DNA of 64,000 nucleotides, from contig CM075103.1 of assembly GCA_037576195.1 (NCBI GenBank), forward strand, positions 21,638,001 to 21,702,000, given 5' to 3'. The DNA is from Phytoseiulus persimilis (Eukaryota > Arthropoda > Arachnida > Mesostigmata > Phytoseiidae). Positions 1,700 to 62,353 of this stretch are shown one piece after another. How positions within the stretch are numbered: position 1 is the first letter of the stretch; the number at the start of each line of letters is the position of its first letter. The notes beneath the pieces are model-generated. The model searched no databases, was not told where the DNA came from, and was given only the letters and a program-made list of their open reading frames with translations. The position numbers were made by a program, and so were the translations under genes.

Positions 1700-3350
1700 T
1701 TTTGGCTTTCCGCGATTCGTCCGTCCGTCCTGGTACGGAAATCGCTCATCGCTCATGAGAAGTTAAGTTGATAATGATGTAGAACTACGATCACGTGGAC
1801 TATAGCCTTTTACGAAGTGATCTAATCTGCTCTACCCCGCTTCGCGATTACTGCTCGACGTCCGAGCAACCTGGGAAAGCAGCAAAACACGCAATCAAAG
1901 GATTATGGAGAAGCGTGCCATACTTGAACGGGCATGCGAAGACGCGGCTCCAACCCCACGCACACCTTTGTCGGATCAGGCAGTATTTTCACGAGCCGTA
2001 CACCGAGCTCAACATGCTGCTCCGTCACTAGCGCATCTCAGCCCCAGGGGCGGTTCGGGCGATTCCTTGGAAGCATTTTTCTGACAGGGTGTGCCCGAGC
2101 GCGTGTTTGTAAATGAACTAATAGTTATACACACATTCACTCACCCACTCCCACTTGGGAATAACGACTTAAAGAATCGAGCAGCCTTATCCAGGGAGTT
2201 CAATACGGCACTGCCGTCCAGCGCTTGAGTCGAACGATCATTTTCCCACGTCACCATGAAAATAACTGGAAACTAGGTTCTTCCGAATGTTTCCGTATTG
2301 GGTACACCGACTGGATAACTTTTCCTGCTGGAGAATCAATTGTCCTCCCACAGACGCTGTTGTGCTCCGGATGGTGGCGATTCCATGTCCGAAATAAGGT
2401 TCCGGAACCGCCGTCACAGCGGAAGCCCCCTTCAGATCACGCACGCCATCGATGTACCCGAGTATGAGGGCCTCTTCCGTTCGAATTTTTTTCAGGTCGC
2501 AGTGAAGGCGCAGCTTACGGCTTCGGAGTAGAAGAAGAAATGCTACCGTGCAAGGCTTGTGAGATCCCACCTAGTCGGATGGCTAACTTCGTTAATTGAG
2601 AGAAGACTCCGTATCATGCCATCATCAGTTCGAGGGCTCCCTCCCATGAGCCTGATGGTCACCGTGTAGAAGTTTCACGACCAACTCTCAGTAACGCCGG
2701 CGCCGCCTCCTCTTCCACGAGTTCGACACCTGCGAAGAACTGTCGCTCATGTTTACCTCGGGAACTTTGAGGTGGATAACCGAATCGATGCGGAAATCTT
2801 TTCGCGTGGCGATCAGAACCGTCTCCAGGGAGAAGTTGGACTTCGCTCACACGTGTGCCGACTTACACAGGAGTCAGAAACCTTCCAGGTTTGTTGCTTA
2901 CAGCAGATCCTGACCGCCAGTCCCACTGCTGGGCAAAGAGAGAAATCCGGTGGCCCACGGCGGAATCCCGGTAAGTCCTGGAACCGAGCGGTCACGAGCC
3001 GCTTCGAGTACGCAGGATACGGGAGGTGGCTCTCGAACAAATCCGGACGAGCATTCATGGCCCTCAGTTCGATTTCGTTCGCCTTTGCAAACAGCTCGAA
3101 GAGGCGGGGATCGGAGGGTGATCGTTCGAGCTCAGAGAAGCCGAACCTACCGATGTCATCATCGAGTCAGGAAACATCAAGGCTGAGCCAGACGCCATCA
3201 TTTCCCAACCCAAAGCTCTACTGCAAATGAGACTCACGTTTGACCGGGATACGCGAAACTACGAGGTGAGCTATCTCAAATTAGGATCTGCTGCTAAGCC
3301 CGGCAGTGAGCTAAGGCTGCTGCCGATGTGCCTAACTGCCCTCGGAATCA
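1700..3350. other. No gene recognised; one possible exon end near 3291
   Basis: On the + strand about 3090-3265 has protein-like composition ending in a GAG|GTGAGC donor-like site, but the frame contains a stop and no upstream exon could be tied to it. No domain is recognisable. The rest shows only short frames. Confidence 0.3.
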
Positions 3351-3379
3351 GAGCGAATGCGTCCAGGAAGCCTTAAAAA

Positions 3380-3960
3380 CTCGGATAACACTTCAGCTCG
3401 AAGCACCTCCGCTTTCTTGAAAGCCAGTGGAATTTTTCGTAGCTCGAAATTCCGAGACGAGATGAAACACAAAAATACATCTCTGATGAAGCCCTGCATG
3501 GTACAGGCGTATCAAGAAGTTCGAAGAGAGCGTTCTATCTAAGAGCTGATAGAGATTCTCGCGTCGCGTTGAACCTATCGCGGAAGACATTCAAATACAA
3601 GTTTTGACGATTGTCGGGAGAGCGTCACTCTACGCAATCCGATTAGATGAATCTATTGACGTCTCCAACGACGCTACTGCTTCGTTTTGTAAGGACAGAG
3701 TCTGGGGGGATAACGGAACTGTCCTGTTTGGCTGATATATTCTCTCAACTGAGTGACCTCAACATATGCCCGCAAGGAAAGCAAAACGATGTGTTCTCGC
3801 TTCGAGGAAAGATACGTGCCTGCCAGTCAGTAGCGTAGCCCTTCTTTTTTACGGAGCTTGCAGCTGCCGCTGGTGAGGGAGGGAAAGCGAGGCGCAGGAC
3901 GCTGAAGTTCCTCTCACACGAGGCACTTGCCACAGGAAATACAAGAGCTATTTTGAAATA
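3380..3960 (+). mobile_element. hAT transposase relic (ZBED5/SCAND3-like)
   Basis: Conceptual translation in more than one frame gives hAT transposase landmarks in the right order. A string resembling the region before the catalytic core (KHKNTSLMKPC) comes first. Next is AEDIQIQVL followed by IRLDESIDVSNDA at about 3560-3665, where LDES-DVS carries the first catalytic aspartate of the family. Then comes DIFSQLSDLNICPQGKQND-FSLRGKIRA at about 3735-3825, matching the conserved 'LN-LQGK---IF---DKI-AF' block of ZBED/SCAND3-type hATs. Stops and frame changes make it a pseudogene. Terminal repeats were not located. Confidence 0.7.
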
Positions 3961-3969
3961 CAGGACCAG

Positions 3970-5950
3970 CCCCTTGAATACTTCCTACATCGACAGCGGA
4001 CATCCGAACCACTCGCTTGCGTTCTGGATTTGGTTGGAATTTAGCCGTGCTCGAATTCGGAGGTTCCTTCACTCTCCCGCGAAACATCATGACTTTCTCA
4101 CCTCGTCCAACAAGCTGTGAGCCCCGGTTCTATCGTACACACCAAAAGTTTGGATACCAGAACAGGGTGGGACACAAAAGTTACAAAGCGTAGAGCTATG
4201 GGGAGGACAATTTCACAAATGCTGAGGTCCTTCCCCGCATAGAACGACTTCGTTCTCCATCGCACGAAAGGCCGCAGACATCGAACACATGATTGAGAAA
4301 ACCATCTAAGACCTCGCTGTACATGTGCAAGGTATATCATTCATCCTCAACGCTGACAAACGGCATTTTTTGATCCCACTCATCGTCGTTATGGAACACC
4401 TCCAGGTAAAGAAACTTTGATAGTACCGAGATCTTAAATGCGGGCACTCAGATTGAGCGGGAGTCTGGTTGAATCACCGTCACTAGTTTAAGTTTCCGGA
4501 GTGAGGAGCAGGCACGGCTGCTCTTCGCGAAAAACGAGGCATTCGCATTGCCAAAATGATGAGCCAGATTTTTAGTGAGAAATTGAGGAGCTCACGTCCC
4601 AGGGACTAATCGTGCTTTCTCTCACGATGATCGCTGTGACCTCGTGAATCTGATGCCCCTGGAAACAACAGACGAATTCACAGAAAGAAACAAACTCGTC
4701 GTAGTCCAAAATCTCCTGAGCCTAGCCTCACGGAATTTCAAAATCGAGAGGCTTTAGCTTGTGAAGCATAATGCTGGCTATGCTACTGCTACCAGTGTAA
4801 GGTATGCCAGGATCCCAAGGTATCCCCCCAAAGGCAGGACGACATAGCCAAGGACGATTTTCGAGTGTTCCCGAATCTTGAAAACTCTCCCGAAGAACAG
4901 GAAGACTACCGACGTGCGAGATGGTCCAGGAGCATCGACAATCACTTGAGGATTGTTTCAGTGATTATTTACCGGAATAACAGGATCAAAGAGAAGGAAA
5001 CCTGTGCATAATCAGTCCGTTCGTTGCTGACGTAAGAGGCACCTGTTTGAACCTGGCAGAAAGGTCAAGTATCATGGGCTCGCTGAAGACGATGGCTTGG
5101 AGTGAGAGCGGAGCATCGTGTTCTGCACCAGAAGGCAATGAAGAGACTGCTGACATAGTCAACGACATATACATGCGAGAAAACGTTCTCGGCGGTGACA
5201 GCTATCGAGACTCGATATCGCGGCTCACGCGAGAGGGGGGGGGGGAGGATGTTATGACGACGATGATGATGATGATCATAGTCGCGAGTTTTTCATGACG
5301 CAGTCTACATGGTTTCCAAACCTGCGAACATTTTCCTGATAACACGGAATCTTTGCAGAACAAATCCGTTCATCAAAGTGGTATTCAATCCACCCTTCCC
5401 AATATTATCGAATATCGTGGGTCGTGTTGGACTCAACCCGTATGTCAGGAAACGTGACCAATGGGCCGGGAGTTTTTCCGATTTTGGACCCCAGATTGAA
5501 GATCGTAGCAACGTGATCGTGCACGTCGCCACGATGGCTGAGCGGCAATTACACCGCAGCATATATGTATATGTGTACACCGATTGACACCCGGGTATCG
5601 CCAAGCGGGGAGGAGTGTCATGGTATTCTATGTCCTGAAAACTGTGACCGTTGTCCGCAGTGGTCCTTCGCATCTGAGGTAGAAGGTCACCCGCGCTTGA
5701 GATCGAATATAGCTACCGTGCTTTTCAGAAAGTGAGCCATCCCTTGAGAATGAGCCATACTTCGATATTCGAACGTTTCGGCTATGTAAGCCTTACCCCG
5801 AATAAAAGCCGTACCTGGAACTGAACTCAGCGTGGAGAATCGTCAGAATGGGTCTTAGTTCTCGAATCTGTCTGGTTTACTCAGCGCCAATAGGAGATGA
5901 CGCCTGCGAGCCGATAAGTTCGTCGCACGCTGCTGTTCCAGGTTGGGAGT
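3970..5950. other. Gene-free stretch
   Basis: No recognisable domain on either strand. A G-run followed by a GATGAT microsatellite lies at about 5231-5280. Frames are short and uncharacterised. Confidence 0.4.
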
Positions 5951-23479: not shown

Positions 23480-23790
23480 GTGGGCGGTGTCACTTCGGAA
23501 ACTCCCGACCCAACAACCTCCTCAAACCCAGGAGAGTACAGTCGGATCGATGTTGGAATCACTCCCATAGACTCCGCAGAGCAGGGTCAGATCGATCCCG
23601 AAATCAGCTCGTTAGACTCCAAAAATAATGGTCGACGCCGGAATCACCTTCTCAGAACCAGAAAAGTATGGTCAGATCGATCCCGGAATCACCTCCTTAG
23701 ACCCAGGAAAGTTGGGTCAGGTCGATCCCGAAATCAGCTCCCTGAACTCCGAAAAGTATGGTCAGGTCGACCCCATTCGTTTCGGAAGCT
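23480..23790 (+). repeat. 45-bp minisatellite array, diverged (locus 1)
   Basis: About six or seven units related to GATCGATCCCGGAATCACC...(A/G)GTATGGTCA, phased at about 45 bases. Units differ a lot from one another, so this array is old. It points in the opposite direction to the array at 25213-25642; the two flank part of a Ty3/Gypsy fossil. Just after it, at 23846-23869, is the CCCTCCCCTGGCTACG end-like motif also seen at 6378. Confidence 0.75.
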
Positions 23791-23999: not shown

Positions 24000-26270
24000 T
24001 ACTTTTCACTTGACCGAACGAATGTTTTTTTTCTTTCAAAAAATCGAAGAAGCAATACAAGTTTTCCCTCGAGAGCATCCTCTCTCTCAGCTGCTAGAGT
24101 CTTAGTCTGGATTTCTTCGCATTTCTGAACGAGTTCATTTGCAGGGGTTACAGTTTCGAAGTGAGGGGGCTCTATGCTCATTGATCGGCGATCTTCAGGC
24201 TACTCTCTTCATTTTCCAAGTTCCATTTTAAGTTAAACATTAGATCGTTGGTCTTCGTAAGCAGATCTTTCAGTTCAGTATCATCAGCGTCAGTGATTTC
24301 TTTTTCTGACTCTTTAATGCCTCGCAGCAGATCGTCCTGGTCCTCCCGTGCAACGTTACTTTCTTGTTTTCCAACTGTTTTGAGTGTCTTAATCAGTGTT
24401 TCCAGTCTCGGGATAAACTTTGCGGTTCGTTTTGGAGTCATTCGCTCTCGAGGTTTCGGTGTTTCAGAGCGGAGAAAGTTTCATCCTCTCGATTGGTGGT
24501 GGTAGTTCGTAAGCCAGTTGAAACCCGTTGACTTTTCTATTTTGGGTTGACGTGTCCGGCCTGTAGCGTTTTCGAAGTTGATTTGCGTGCTGGCGGGTCG
24601 TTTGATCATCGACGTCAAGGGGATGAAATGCATTGTCACGTTTCTTCACGGTAACTGGCGTCCAATATTCTTCGCTCCGCCTGTGCATCCTGACATAGAC
24701 TGGTTCGTCTTCTTTCAAAAATTTCGGTCGAGCTCTATTATGTTTGTTAGAGTCCCGCTCAGTTCTTTCCTTGTAGTTCTTCACGAAAACCGAAGAAATA
24801 GTTCTTTGGTACGAGCAAATCCAGTGTTGTTCGGAATCTGCGACCGATGAACATCTCTGCTGGGGTCTTTTCTCAAGCGCTTCTGATGGAGTGGTTCTGT
24901 AAGTCTTGTGAAACTTGGCGACTATTTCATTCGTGTTGCCTCCGTTCGTCATTTTCTCCAATGATCTTTTGAATAAATCGACCATCCGTTCAGCTCGGAC
25001 CAGTTATGGGCCTCAAGGGCGGTGAAATTTTCCACAAGGGGACCATCTCTTGTCTACTGCAGAGTCAACGGGAACGTGTGGGGACGAATAAGGAGAGCTC
25101 CGGTCCTCATCAGCAAACCGCCTATGACTTCGAATTTGTCCTTACTACATATAATCCGCTTCGTCCGTCAGTTTGTTTGTCAGTTCGACCGCACTCCTTA
25201 TAGAATATATGAGGTGATTCCAGGACCAATCTGACCATACTTTTCCAAACCTGGAGGGGTGATTCCGGGATCCATCTGACCATATTCCTTGGAGTCTCTG
25301 GAGGTTATTCCCGGGTCAAATCTGACCAAACGTTCCGTAACCTAACGAGGTGATTACGGCGTCGACCTTACCACTTTTTTCGAAGTGGAGGTAATCACGG
25401 GATCGATCCGACCATACTTTTCGTAGTCCAAGGAGGTCATTCCGGTGTCGATCTGACCATACATTCCGATGTCCATGGAGGGGATTCTTGAGTCGATCTG
25501 ACAATCCTCCTCGAAGCCATGGAGCTGATTCGCGGGTCAGTCTAACCATTCTTCACAGGCTCTATGGAAGTGATTCCAGGATCGACCTGACCATACTTTT
25601 CGGATTCTAAGGAGGTGATTGCGGAGTCTTTCTGACCATAACAACATGTAGCAATCAATCGAATGAGAACACAGTTTTAGGAATGATACTGACCAAATGA
25701 AGAGAGAGAAAAGTGCCTCGATGCCAGGGAGCGCAGTCCAACCGCGCGAAGCGCTGCCGACTCTGGTCGGCCGAAGGCCGGCTGGTCCGCCATATTTTTT
25801 TCTCCCTGAGCGTTCGTTCTTCCACCGGCTTTCTGAAAATCCCGAGTCGTTCTCGTATGTCTTTGTCGATCGCTTGCGTTGTCGCCGCCGCACTGTAATC
25901 CATCGTGGACGCTCGAACCGTGCTCGTTCTCAGATCTGTAGGCAATTCCTCGATGTTTTCGTTCTCGCTTGGCGTCTCCTCAAGTGGCGACCGACACAAC
26001 GCGTCCGCATGTGCCTTTGCCGTTCCCGCTCGGTACCTGATTTCAAAGTCGCACTCCGAAATCTGATTCCACCATCGACCCAACTGCGACGATCCGGACT
26101 GCGCTTTCAACGCCAACAGCGCGTTACAATCCGACACCACCGTGAATTTTATCCCGAACAGATAATGTCTGAACCGTCCTATGCTGCGCAAGACCGGAAA
26201 TTGCTCCAACTTGGTCGAGTGATGATTCGGCTCCGACTGTGACAACTTCCTACTGATTGCGGAAATCAAC
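24000..26270 (-). mobile_element. Ty3/Gypsy LTR retrotransposon fossil, pol part
   Basis: Fossil of the Ty3/Gypsy family on the minus strand. Recognisable parts are an RNase H region (about 26270-25900), the C-terminal part of an integrase region (about 24985-24470) and short downstream frames with charged, helical composition (about 24440-24000). A block with the 45-bp minisatellite lies between the RNase H and integrase parts, consistent with a later insertion. No LTRs were recognised. The copy is broken, with more than several breaks, and looks old. Confidence 0.7.
25213..25642 (-). repeat. 45-bp minisatellite array, diverged and inverted (locus 2)
   Basis: About ten units in reverse orientation, each like GATCTGACCATACTTTTC...GGAGGTGATTCC, phased at about 45 bases with some shorter and longer units. 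Divergence between units is high. The left side (25094-25212) carries a non-repetitive end module that includes TACATATAATCCGCTTCGTC, whose reverse complement follows the array at 60062-60101 and a relative of which lies at 62354-62425. The block sits between two parts of a Ty3/Gypsy fossil. Confidence 0.8.
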
Positions 26271-29261: not shown

Positions 29262-29572
29262 GTTGGTCCCGGAATCACGCCTCCAGGCTTTGGAAATAAT
29301 GGTCAGATTGGTCCAGGAAACATCCTCCAGACTCGAAGAAGTATGTTCAGATTGGTTCCGGAATCACTTCTCCAAACTCGGGAGAGTATGCTCAGATTGG
29401 TCTCGGAATCTACACTCCAATTTTGGAAAAGTATGGGCAGATTGATCCCGGAATCACCCCTCCAGTTTTGGAAAAGTATGGGCAGATTGATCCCGGAATC
29501 ACCCCTCCAGAGTTGGAAAGTAATGGCCAGATTGGTCTCGGAGTGACCCCTCCAGACTTCGGCGAGTGATTC
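29262..29572 (+). repeat. 45-bp minisatellite array (locus 3)
   Basis: Seven units of the CAGATTGGTCCCGGAATCAC...GGAAAGTATGG type at ~45-base spacing. Units are more alike than at 23.5 and 25.4 kb, with two nearly identical neighbours (about 29435-29520), but less uniform than at 59.6 kb. Because 45 is a multiple of three, the array produces open frames that are not genes. Confidence 0.85.
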
Positions 29573-58690: not shown

Positions 58691-59512
58691 ACCCTGGTTC
58701 GTCTTATTCGCGAGCACGCCATCGGCGACAGGGACATCCGGTGATTCTCGGTGTGATACGGCTCCGCTGAACGGAGATGCTGCATTCCCCTCTCCTCGCC
58801 GCTTCGAACGGTCGAAAACGGCCAGCGGCGCGGTAGTCCGGGGAAAGTTCGAGAACTTTGAGTTCTCAGTCGTCGAACAACGGGGGAGCGGAACCAACGT
58901 GACAGCCGTTTCGATACTAGGCGCCAGCTGCTTGGTCAGCGAAGTTGGTAATTTGAGGAAGTCGAGGAGCATTTGAACCGGTCGACACAGGAAGTATTTC
59001 GGGTCGCGTTTCCGGGCTTCCCGTTCCCCCATCGGTGAAAAAGAGCAGGAACAGAGACAGGACGGAGGGAGGAGAGAACGGAAAACCCGAGAATTCCGAC
59101 CACGAGGCCAACCCGAGTAGCACAACGGAAGTGCCCGAGGTATGTCAGCGTCAGCAAGGGAAGAGCGCTCGAGAATGTTATCTCAATAAAAATCGAAACA
59201 TTGAGTCAGAACGGTTGCATTGATTACTTATTGGCTCGATTGGAACTAGATATGGTTGAGAGTGAGGGTATGAACATCGTTCTGATTCAAGAGTCCCAAT
59301 CCAGCATTGGTTGAAACTTCCCATCATATGATCATTGACGAGGAAAGACTGATATGTCTGACCACAACCTAATAACTGTACAATGTAAGATGTGCGGCGA
59401 AGGGAAGCCCGCCGGGCTCTTAACATACGTGATCGCCCAACGGAGCCAGATCGACTCGACAACGGGGGCCGAAGAATGCCAATGCTCCACTTGCCTCCTA
59501 AGTTCTAATCAC

Positions 59513-60221
59513 CAGAGTTGGGCAGATTCGAATCATTTTGATTCGAATCTCTTCTGATTCGAATCATTTAAGATTGGTCTCGGAATCACCCCTCCAGAGT
59601 TGGGAAGTAATGCTCAGATTGGTCTCGGAATCACCCCTCCAGAGTTGGAAGTAATGCTCAGATTGGTCTCGGAATCACCCCTCCAGAGTTGGAAAGTAAT
59701 GCTCAGATTGGTCTCGGAATCACCCCTCCAGAGTTGGGAAGTAATGCTCAGATTGGTCTCGGAATCACCCCTCCAGAGTTGGAAGTAATGCTCAGATTGG
59801 TCTCGGAATCACCCCTCCAGAGTTGGGAAGTAATGCTCAGATTGGTCTCGGAATCACCCCTCCAGAGTTGGGAAGTAATGCTCAGATTGGTCTCGGAATC
59901 ACCCCTCCAGAGTTGGAAGTAATGCTCAGATTGGTCTCGGAATCACCCCTCCAGAGTTGGAAAGTAATGCTCAGATTGGTCTCGGAATCACCCCTCCAGA
60001 GTTGGGAAGTAATGCTCAGATTGGTCTCGGAATCACCCCTCCAGAGTTGGAAAGTATGCTCAGATTGGTCCCGGACTAAGCCGATTATATGTAGTAAGGA
60101 TTCGAATCAGAGTGATTCGAATCAGATGATCGATCCTGATTCGAATCAAAATGATTCGAATCACTTTTGATTCGATGTTTCTTGATTCGAATCAAAAGTG
60201 ATTCGAATCTGCCCAACTTTG
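59513..60221 (+). mobile_element. hAT-type non-autonomous element with minisatellite core
   Basis: Ends are CAGAGTTGGGCAGATTCGAA (left) and, reverse-complemented, CAAAGTTGGGCAGATTCGAA (right). An identical 8-bp direct repeat CTAATCAC flanks it at 59505-59512 and 60222-60229. Eight-base target duplications and CAG-type ends are hallmarks of the hAT superfamily. Inside both ends are clusters of the palindrome GATTCGAATC (59523-59568 and 60102-60212), plausible transposase-binding repeats. The centre is a 45-bp minisatellite with no coding capacity. It lies inside an R1 LINE, so it inserted after that copy. Confidence 0.92.
59571..60075 (+). repeat. 45-bp minisatellite, 11 near-identical units (locus 5)
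   Basis: Units of 44 or 45 bases start AGATTGGTCTCGGAATCACC and end in a G-run variant before AAGTAATGCTC. Eleven full units run 59571-60061, then a partial unit. They differ almost only in the number of G/A at one spot; by that marker units 7-10 repeat the order of units 1-4, a higher-order duplication. Homogeneity implies recent expansion. All frames through it open because 45 is divisible by three. Confidence 0.95.
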
Positions 60222-62353
60222 CTAATCACACATTCGGGTCTGGAGGACATTTCAGAGTGGATATGGCCATACTTCTCGGGATACATAGGGGGTAGGGTAC
60301 CACTAACCCGATTCCCCCTCACCTCAGAGCACTTCAGAGGGAAGAACCTAGCGGACTGGTGGAGTCCGACGGATAACAGACATCGCAAGAAATGCATCGC
60401 GGCCCGTAGACGGTACACCCGAACAAGGCGAAATAACAAAATCGACCCGGCAATAGTTCAAGGATACTACAAGTGCTACGTGGATATGAAGAGAGAATAT
60501 CACGAGATAATACTAGAGGCCAAGAGAAAAGGCTGGAAGGAACTGGTCGAGTCGCTTAGACAGGACGTCAGGGGTTTTCCCCACAAGATCATCCGGGGAA
60601 AGATCGGACAGAAGAGGCTAAGGAACACGAGAGACGTCACAGGTGAAGCGATGCGCGATTTCTTCCCTACTGGTACACCACCAAGAAGAGAACGCAACAG
60701 CAGCTGTCAAACATACCACCTGTCACCCCAGCGGAAGCTCAAAGAGCGGCGGAGAGGATGGCAAACAGGGGAGCTCCGGGCCCGGATGCCGTGCCGGCTG
60801 AAATACTCAAGAGCCTAATGACCGGATGGCCGAAGATCTCCGTAGGAATGATGGACAAGGTTCTACTGGAAGGAGTCTTCTCGGACAAATGGAAACGGGC
60901 AAATCTGGTCCTCATCCCAAAACCGGGAAAGCAGGATGCCTACCGTCCCATCTGCCTCCTGGATACGGGGGGAAGGCGACCGAAAGCATAATGAACCTCC
61001 GATTACAAGCGGAACTAGAGGGGGCAGGCTCTAAGGCCCCATTATGGCTTCAGAGCCGAACGCTCAACCCCTCAAGCTATCTCGAAGGGAGTGAAGCTGG
61101 CAGTCGAAGAGACAACTTTTACCATTGGCCGGCGGGGGAGTCATCCTGGACAGCCCGAAGGAAAGTGGTATTTCTGAATACCTACTACGAATACTCGAAT
61201 ATTACCTCTATAACAGGTAGATGACGAAGAAAGGCAGCACGAGAGGACGGCGGGAGTACCCCAGGGGTCGGTTCTAGGTCCCATTCAATGGACCGTCTCC
61301 TATGATGACTTACTCCATTTCCGACTCCCAGGGGGAGCAACGTCGATCACTTACGCCGATGACTTGACTCCCATCGTCAAAGGCAAAAAAAATACCAGAA
61401 GTTGAGGAGATCGCGCAGGATTCGATGTACATAATTTTGGAATGGATGGGAAGGAGCAAACTCTCGAGCCTATTGCACAACCTCGACGAAGGCCCTATTC
61501 GTGCTCGCCAGAATAGTACCATGGCCGCTCCTGGTCAAGGAAAGGACCGCACTATACACGAGGTACAACGAAGATACAGCCGAGGAATCCGAAGAAGACG
61601 ACCCACACAGAAATGAGATCGAGACTGGAACCCTCGACGCCTGGCAGGCGCAATGGGACTCATCCACGAAAGGACGGTGGACGTATGCGAGCATGCCGAA
61701 TATTAAGACCTGGGTGGGAAGAGACTTCGGAGACCTGACTCACCATACCACGCAGATGCTGACGAATCATGGAAACTTCCAGCAATACCTGTTCAGGATG
61801 AGGAAGGCAGACTCGCCCCTGTGCACAGTCTGCAGCTCGGGGGGCGAAGATGATGCCCATCACACAGTTATCACTTGTGCTGCACTAAGTCAACCGAGGG
61901 GTAATCTAGGAGCAAACTCGGTACCGCAATTAGTGGGACACCTGCTGAAATCTGAGGAAGCATGGAAGAGAACGCCAAGAAAGGTCGAATGTATACTCCG
62001 GGAGAAAGATAGCCTACAAAGGCACCGACAGGGTTGGCGAGCTGTTCCCGCGGCAAGGACCGTGAGCGGAGCAGCCTAGAAGAGAGCGTTGGGAACAAAA
62101 AGAGAGAATGACCAAGAAGCTGAGAAGAGCAAAGAACGTAGCTAGCTTACAGTTTTTCCCAAGATCGCTGGCCTCGAGTTTCCTGGGAGTAATACTAAAC
62201 GGAGGAACCTCTCTGAGCCCCCAGACACCCGAAGGCAGAGGAGAGAGTTTTGGAGGGTGCAAGCGACAGTGCGTGCGACAGGCCTTTCTCTCTCCTCTGT
62301 GAATATAAAAAAGGAACAAAATAAAAGAGCGAAGCTGGACATCGAGATTCAGA

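Follow-up and report, generated by a model that had tools for sequence, protein, structure and literature searches.

A minisatellite-bearing element inside a decayed retrotransposon

The window, by which we mean the whole stretch of 64,000 nucleotides that was analyzed, corresponds to C3:21638001-21702000 of the 181-Mb genome of Phytoseiulus persimilis (127 contigs), and the parts of the element are given below in window positions. The element occupies 709 bp (59513-60221) and is flanked by two perfect copies of the 8-bp sequence CTAATCAC, at 59505-59512 on the left and at 60222-60229 on the right. Its terminal inverted repeats are CAGAGTTGGGCAG at 59513-59525 on the forward strand and, read inwards from 60221, CAAAGTTGGGCAG at 60209-60221 on the reverse strand. 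Clusters of the palindrome GATTCGAATC, possibly binding sites for a transposase, lie at 59525-59566 (three palindromes by motif mapping) and at 60099-60209. Between the clusters TRF reports a forward-strand minisatellite array (59571-60075) with a period of 45 bp (some units are 44 bp long), 11.3 copies and 97% matches, and motif mapping places a Helitron-like 5′ end, TCCTTACTACATATAATCGGCTTAGT, at 60075-60100 on the reverse strand, directed into the element. The sequence and the TRF result show all that the first-pass annotation had described here, namely the 8-bp duplication, the inverted ends, the palindrome clusters and eleven 45-bp units. Each unit also holds CAGAGTTGG(G)AAGTAATG, which is similar to the hAT tip CAGAGTTGGGCAG; this may be chance, or the unit may have been born as a transposon tip.

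The host of the element is a frame-broken non-LTR retrotransposon, the reverse-transcriptase side of which extends over approximately 60230-62079 on the forward strand. A 71-aa piece of the host, located 3′ of the insertion, resembles LINE reverse transcriptases of the PDB (E 0.005-0.014), which agrees with the LINE part of the original label (R1 LINE), and is 46% identical to a reverse-transcriptase-like reading in locus L023. Pfam gave no reverse-transcriptase match on the host pieces examined, and a match to zf-RVT, at E 0.09, was below the cut-off.

A family of hAT-type copies with common ends

Is the element a unique oddity? A 22-base end pattern, CARAGTTGGGCAGATTCGAATC, which is longer than the left terminal repeat and was searched with up to two mismatches, matches the genome 87 times on the forward and 85 times on the reverse strand, 172 in all, whereas its reversed control matches on neither strand, which rules this possibility out. 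We read 59 genome segments (216 kb) and obtained 49 pairs of ends lying no more than 2.5 kb apart; 11 unpaired ends in these segments, one of them spurious (C1:45484977), are excluded from the 49, and because pairs were chosen by exact or near-exact ends, old copies are under-represented among them. The terminal inverted repeats are short and common to the copies. The hAT reading had been made to depend on the existence of further copies with the same end points, and with 172 end matches and 49 pairs read it survived.

The 8-bp flanking repeats are perfect in 42 of the 49 pairs and have one or two mismatches in the other seven, whereas flanks swapped between copies match in none of 2352 combinations, so that chance is ruled out as the origin of the repeats. 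At two unpaired ends the 8-bp sequence adjoins a second end that is damaged (C1:14821881) or truncated (C2:16361519). Among the 42 perfect duplications, with orientations pooled, T occupies position 2 and A position 7 in 80% of cases each, that is, the bias nTnnnnAn that has been reported for the target duplication of Hermes (PMC2803484). Together with the swapped flanks, this bias and the perfect duplications uphold the proposed hAT-type insertion. The ends are modular and composed of short repeats, in a foldback-like manner, and no hAT transposase is linked to them, both of which would suit a foldback-type element of a non-hAT superfamily that is moved by a different transposase; given 8-bp duplications with the nTnnnnAn signature of Hermes, we consider such an element highly improbable. 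The CA(G)...-type tips fit hAT.

We joined the flanks of 46 copies and aligned them to the sequence read; five alignments crossed the junction, and two of them are gap-free: an empty site for C4:112478-113091 (97% over 193 bp) and one for C1:2575479-2576216 (75% over 216 bp), the empty relative in the latter case being the Helitron-like copy of the window. Of the three remaining alignments, one extends for just 18 bp to one side of the junction, and the other two are weak and contain gaps. For the window copy, the same search found the two flanks of the element itself and a single partial match at 80%, with no close empty paralogue. That the window element is a non-autonomous hAT (a MITE) is well supported by the family of ends, the perfect 8-bp duplications with their hAT bias, the absence of matches among the 2352 swaps and the empty sites of two other copies.

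Core architecture and payload of the hAT copies

Motif mapping detected the 45-bp units in 41 of the 49 copies; the other eight have no core. In 37 of the 41 cored copies, the core consists of two inverted, non-identical variants of a 27-bp sequence, the Helitron-like 5′ end, flanking few units, and the order is end, palindromes, an inward Helitron-like 5′ end, units in inverted orientation (usually one or two), units in forward orientation, the opposite inward 5′ end, palindromes and end. The remaining four, the window copy included, have a single Helitron-like 5′ end, the window element being without the left one that is present in most cored copies. Most cored copies carry 9-41 palindromes, and none of the hAT copies read has coding capacity.

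How much minisatellite do these copies carry? With a stricter counter (n = 49), there are no units in eight copies, one in seven, two in 23, three in two, four in four and eight in two, and the highest numbers, 11, 12 and 18, occur in one copy each; grouped by class, eight copies have none, 30 have one or two, six have three or four and five have eight or more. The description of the element as built around a minisatellite is therefore apt for the window copy and not for the family, with its eight unit-free copies and 30 copies of one or two units. Of the eight copies without units, four (95, 154, 198 and 374 bp) have perfect duplications, which shows that insertion does not require the core. 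Long arrays are also present at two unpaired ends, C3:36683395 and C4:1762475, each of which has a partner with a compatible duplication, 13.1 kb away in the first case (C3:36683395-36696467) and 6.9 kb away in the second (C4:1755603-1762475). These are probably large hAT copies; the reading covered some 1.7 kb per copy, and the partner pattern was degenerate in its duplication part, with one mismatch allowed. The unit query gave no match in the interior of the 13-kb copy among the 150 of 231 matches listed.

Which hAT might provide the transposase? The genome has at least 145 matches to the hAT dimerization domain (PF05699), from 150 of 444 candidates scored. When the hAT matches were compared with 98 of the 172 end positions, a hAT lay no more than 15 kb from an end at three places, none of them fitting, and the autonomous partner with the same ends that the first-pass annotation had suggested was thus not found in this limited search (98 of 172 ends, 150 of 444 candidates). 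The match at C2:5885881 is outside a complete copy, and that at C1:18123114 is on the wrong side of the end. Beside C3:23465080, the adjoining 154-bp copy is itself complete and has a duplication of its own, and the hAT has a broken frame in locus L088 and appears to start at CAGGGGTGGGCAA. This L088 hAT (2562-4450 of the locus, C3:23465561-23467449) is a different one that combines a hAT dimerization domain with a zinc finger (PF18658); a similar profile range occurs at five other places in 647-aa open frames, on which account its family may be intact, and may also be recent.

A Helitron-like carrier of the same arrays

The 27-bp sequence of the hAT core belongs to a Helitron-like element, of which it forms the 5′ end and which carries the same 45-bp arrays. 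Its 5′ end pattern, TCCTTACTAYATATAATCGGCTTMGTC (up to three mismatches), has 343 + 310 = 653 genome matches, ends inside hAT copies included, against none for the control; a related 5′ end pattern preceded by the hAT palindrome has 58 + 52 = 110, and the Helitron-like 3′ end has 206 + 183 = 389, again with none for the control. Two complete copies were found outside hAT ends, at 25139-25785 of the window (forward strand) and from C1:22343802 to approximately 22346061. In both, the 5′ end sequence is followed by the 45-bp array and then by a G+C-rich stretch ending GGCCGGCTGG before T, and both have the termini of Helitrons (5′ TC, 3′ CTRR) in the form TCCTTACTA... and ...GGCTGG. The array of the window copy (25211-25640, by TRF and motif scan) is a diverged version of the window minisatellite, with 64% matches. 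Two more diverged arrays of the 45-bp repeat lie at 23516-23774 and 29263-29558 of the window, where motif scans found no Helitron-like or hAT ends.

A T follows all four of the Helitron-like 3′ ends read, and an A precedes the 5′ end in 76 of 78 matches inside hAT copies and also at C1:22343802. We use the label Helitron-like because the window copy (25139) is preceded by G, because the 3′ stretch, in which hairpins are predicted, is no more stably folded than shuffled sequence (z -0.13 and 0.26), and because no coding partner (Rep/helicase) is linked to the ends. Helitron_like_N has 101 matches in the genome, one of which (C4:826651-827208) overlaps a hAT copy starting at C4:827136 and suggests a MITE inside a Helitron gene.

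The 5′ and 3′ ends were paired over C1 and the initial 31.65 Mb of C2, where the matches listed include 100 exact 5′ ends (a few of them inside hAT copies) and 78 exact 3′ ends. For 40 of these 5′ ends there is a 3′ end no more than 12 kb away, and the nearest one is in the correct order and strand in 36, in the wrong order in none and on the opposite strand in four; the 36 correct pairs are spaced 0.5-11 kb apart.

Arrays across the genome and the source of the window array

The matches listed for the same territory form 24 clusters of arrays, around which exact matches to the Helitron-like ends were counted. A correctly oriented 5′ end lies within 12 kb of eight clusters, a correctly oriented 3′ end within 12 kb of nine, and at least one of the two near 13, whereas an opposite-strand end accompanies none of the 24. 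In 2000 runs with clusters placed at random, a mean of 0.06 clusters per run, and never more than 3, had a 5′ end no more than 5 kb away; the observed number is eight. The 11 clusters with no listed end within 12 kb say little, as exact ends alone were listed. These 11 clusters of long arrays are what one might expect if an independent 45-bp minisatellite had entered both elements separately and been homogenized by recombination, but the units accompany Helitron-like 5′ ends in 37 of 41 cored hAT copies and the listed ends near arrays are consistently oriented (13 vs 0), and we consider this course of events unlikely. At the long array C1:22540540-22546150, one end also aligns to the hAT left end (query 8-571, 92%), and Helitron-like 3′ ends lie 2.7 kb beyond it.

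Where did the array of the window copy come from? Ten complete units of three types can be cut from the element, and each of the ten has an identical counterpart both in the C1 Helitron-like copy and in the array C2:2530766-2537455. The 44-bp type is found in the C1 Helitron-like and C2 arrays and is absent from the other 32 hAT copies that gave complete units and from the parts read of the two large copies; the other two types also occur in some hAT copies, and a different diagnostic unit (...TAATGGCC...) is present in 16 of the 33 hAT copies with complete units. As a whole, the 505-bp window array is 98.6-99.0% identical to the C2 array and 98.2-98.6% identical to the C1 Helitron-like array. 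These common unit types and identities suggest that the window copy may have received its Helitron-type units by loading or overwriting and not by growth of the core that hAT copies usually have, although exchange in the reverse direction, from hAT to Helitron-like element, is a possible alternative. One loading route can be seen at C1:18128808: behind a hAT end there are nine units and a Helitron-like 3′ end; this copy has no second end within the 1.5 kb read.

The copies at C1:18631555 and C2:3158845 are 99.75% identical over 813 bp and have different duplications, from which we conclude that the hAT family moved recently. The intact duplication of the window copy is compatible with recent movement; one of its ends has a substitution, and its host is decayed. 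The earlier description of the element as recent is thus fair for the family and, for the window copy, which has no close empty paralogue, no more than a possibility. The uniformity of its units, which had been taken as a sign of recency, is no clock because near-identical arrays exist elsewhere (98.2-99.0% over alignments of 506-509 bp).

Origin and spread of the minisatellite

We think it likely that the window element is a non-autonomous hAT MITE with a captured, Helitron-derived minisatellite. A hAT transposase encoded elsewhere would recognize the 13-bp inverted ends, probably together with some of the adjoining GATTCGAATC palindromes, and would excise the element and reinsert it with an 8-bp duplication, the core being dispensable. 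The core would derive from the Helitron-like element, with inverted variants of its 5′ end on both sides and 45-bp units between them; most hAT copies read hold one to four units and a few, the window copy included, hold many, of types that also fill the Helitron-like and other long arrays. The minisatellite would then have been dispersed in two ways, mainly by the Helitron-like element and secondarily by the hAT. We infer that the hAT is probably the secondary carrier from the Helitron 5′ ends in its core and from the presence of the minisatellite in the more numerous Helitron-like family (653 5′ ends). The suggestion of the first-pass annotation that the element may have spread the minisatellite therefore stands as far as the hAT is a carrier, and probably not as far as it would be the main one.

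Could the hAT family instead have been the original source and main spreader, with Helitron-like elements taking the minisatellite from hAT copies? The likeness of CAGAGTTGG(G)AAGTAATG to the hAT tip and the existence of many-unit hAT copies would fit such a direction, but Helitron-like 5′ ends are far commoner (653) than those preceded by the hAT palindrome (110), the strongly diverged and older-looking array lies in a Helitron-like copy (window 25211-25640, 64% matches), and most hAT copies read have one or two units, which together make it distinctly improbable. The minisatellite may be the shared cargo of two mechanistically unrelated transposons, hAT cut-and-paste and Helitron rolling-circle, with continuing exchange of units, and we give even chances to this fuller proposal, in which Helitron insertion into hAT copies would load new arrays, the hAT would carry whole arrays, some of them several kb long, each in one piece, and both would seed many places.

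How tandem repeats reach many dispersed places is an open question, and it is testable here: each hAT copy has a marked entry point (the 8-bp duplication), countable units and diagnostic variants, and the units can be traced in the Helitron-like carrier. The hAT family is also a natural test of the payload that can be moved by a hAT transposase, as its copies carry between nothing and perhaps 13 kb.

Comparison with known systems

With the hAT MITEs of the Hermes/hobo/Ac superfamily, the family has in common short inverted ends, the 8-bp duplication nTnnnnAn, subterminal short repeats and a lack of coding capacity; it differs in its core of inverted Helitron-like 5′ ends plus minisatellite and in the 9-41 palindromes of most cored copies. 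In Hermes, BED domains are reported to bind the subterminal repeats, one pair of which is a quasi-palindrome, and the repeats further in are probably dispensable as binding sites in cells and seem unimportant for transposition (PMC10368747). Hermes thus offers both a precedent for the proposed role of the palindromes and a caution, as the seeming unimportance of its inner repeats in cells weakens the case for a role of all the GATTCGAATC palindromes. A literature search with GATTCGAATC gave matches that, by title only, were unrelated.

Tetris of Drosophila virilis, a foldback element, is likewise non-autonomous, modular and MITE-like, with internal tandem repeats that also form arrays of kb size; its repeats (TIR-220, approximately 220 bp) lie inside the inverted ends (PMC4079207), whereas here the 45-bp units lie in a Helitron-like core and are common to a second transposon class. 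Tandem repeats carried on a Helitron or a MITE that then expand are represented, in the sections consulted of a further source, by the central repeats of Helitron DINE elements, the Xenopus MITE miDNA4 and the lepidopteran (GTCY)n MITEs, with one carrier type for each repeat (PMC9659126), in contrast to the hAT MITE and Helitron-like element that both carry the repeat described here. The minisatellite, Helitron, hAT and MITE literature searched, seen in part, yielded no case of one minisatellite common to a hAT MITE and a Helitron. That tandem repeats ride on MITEs or Helitrons and then expand is known, and what stands out here is the combination of a Helitron-like origin, which we think likely, with carriage by two kinds of transposon.
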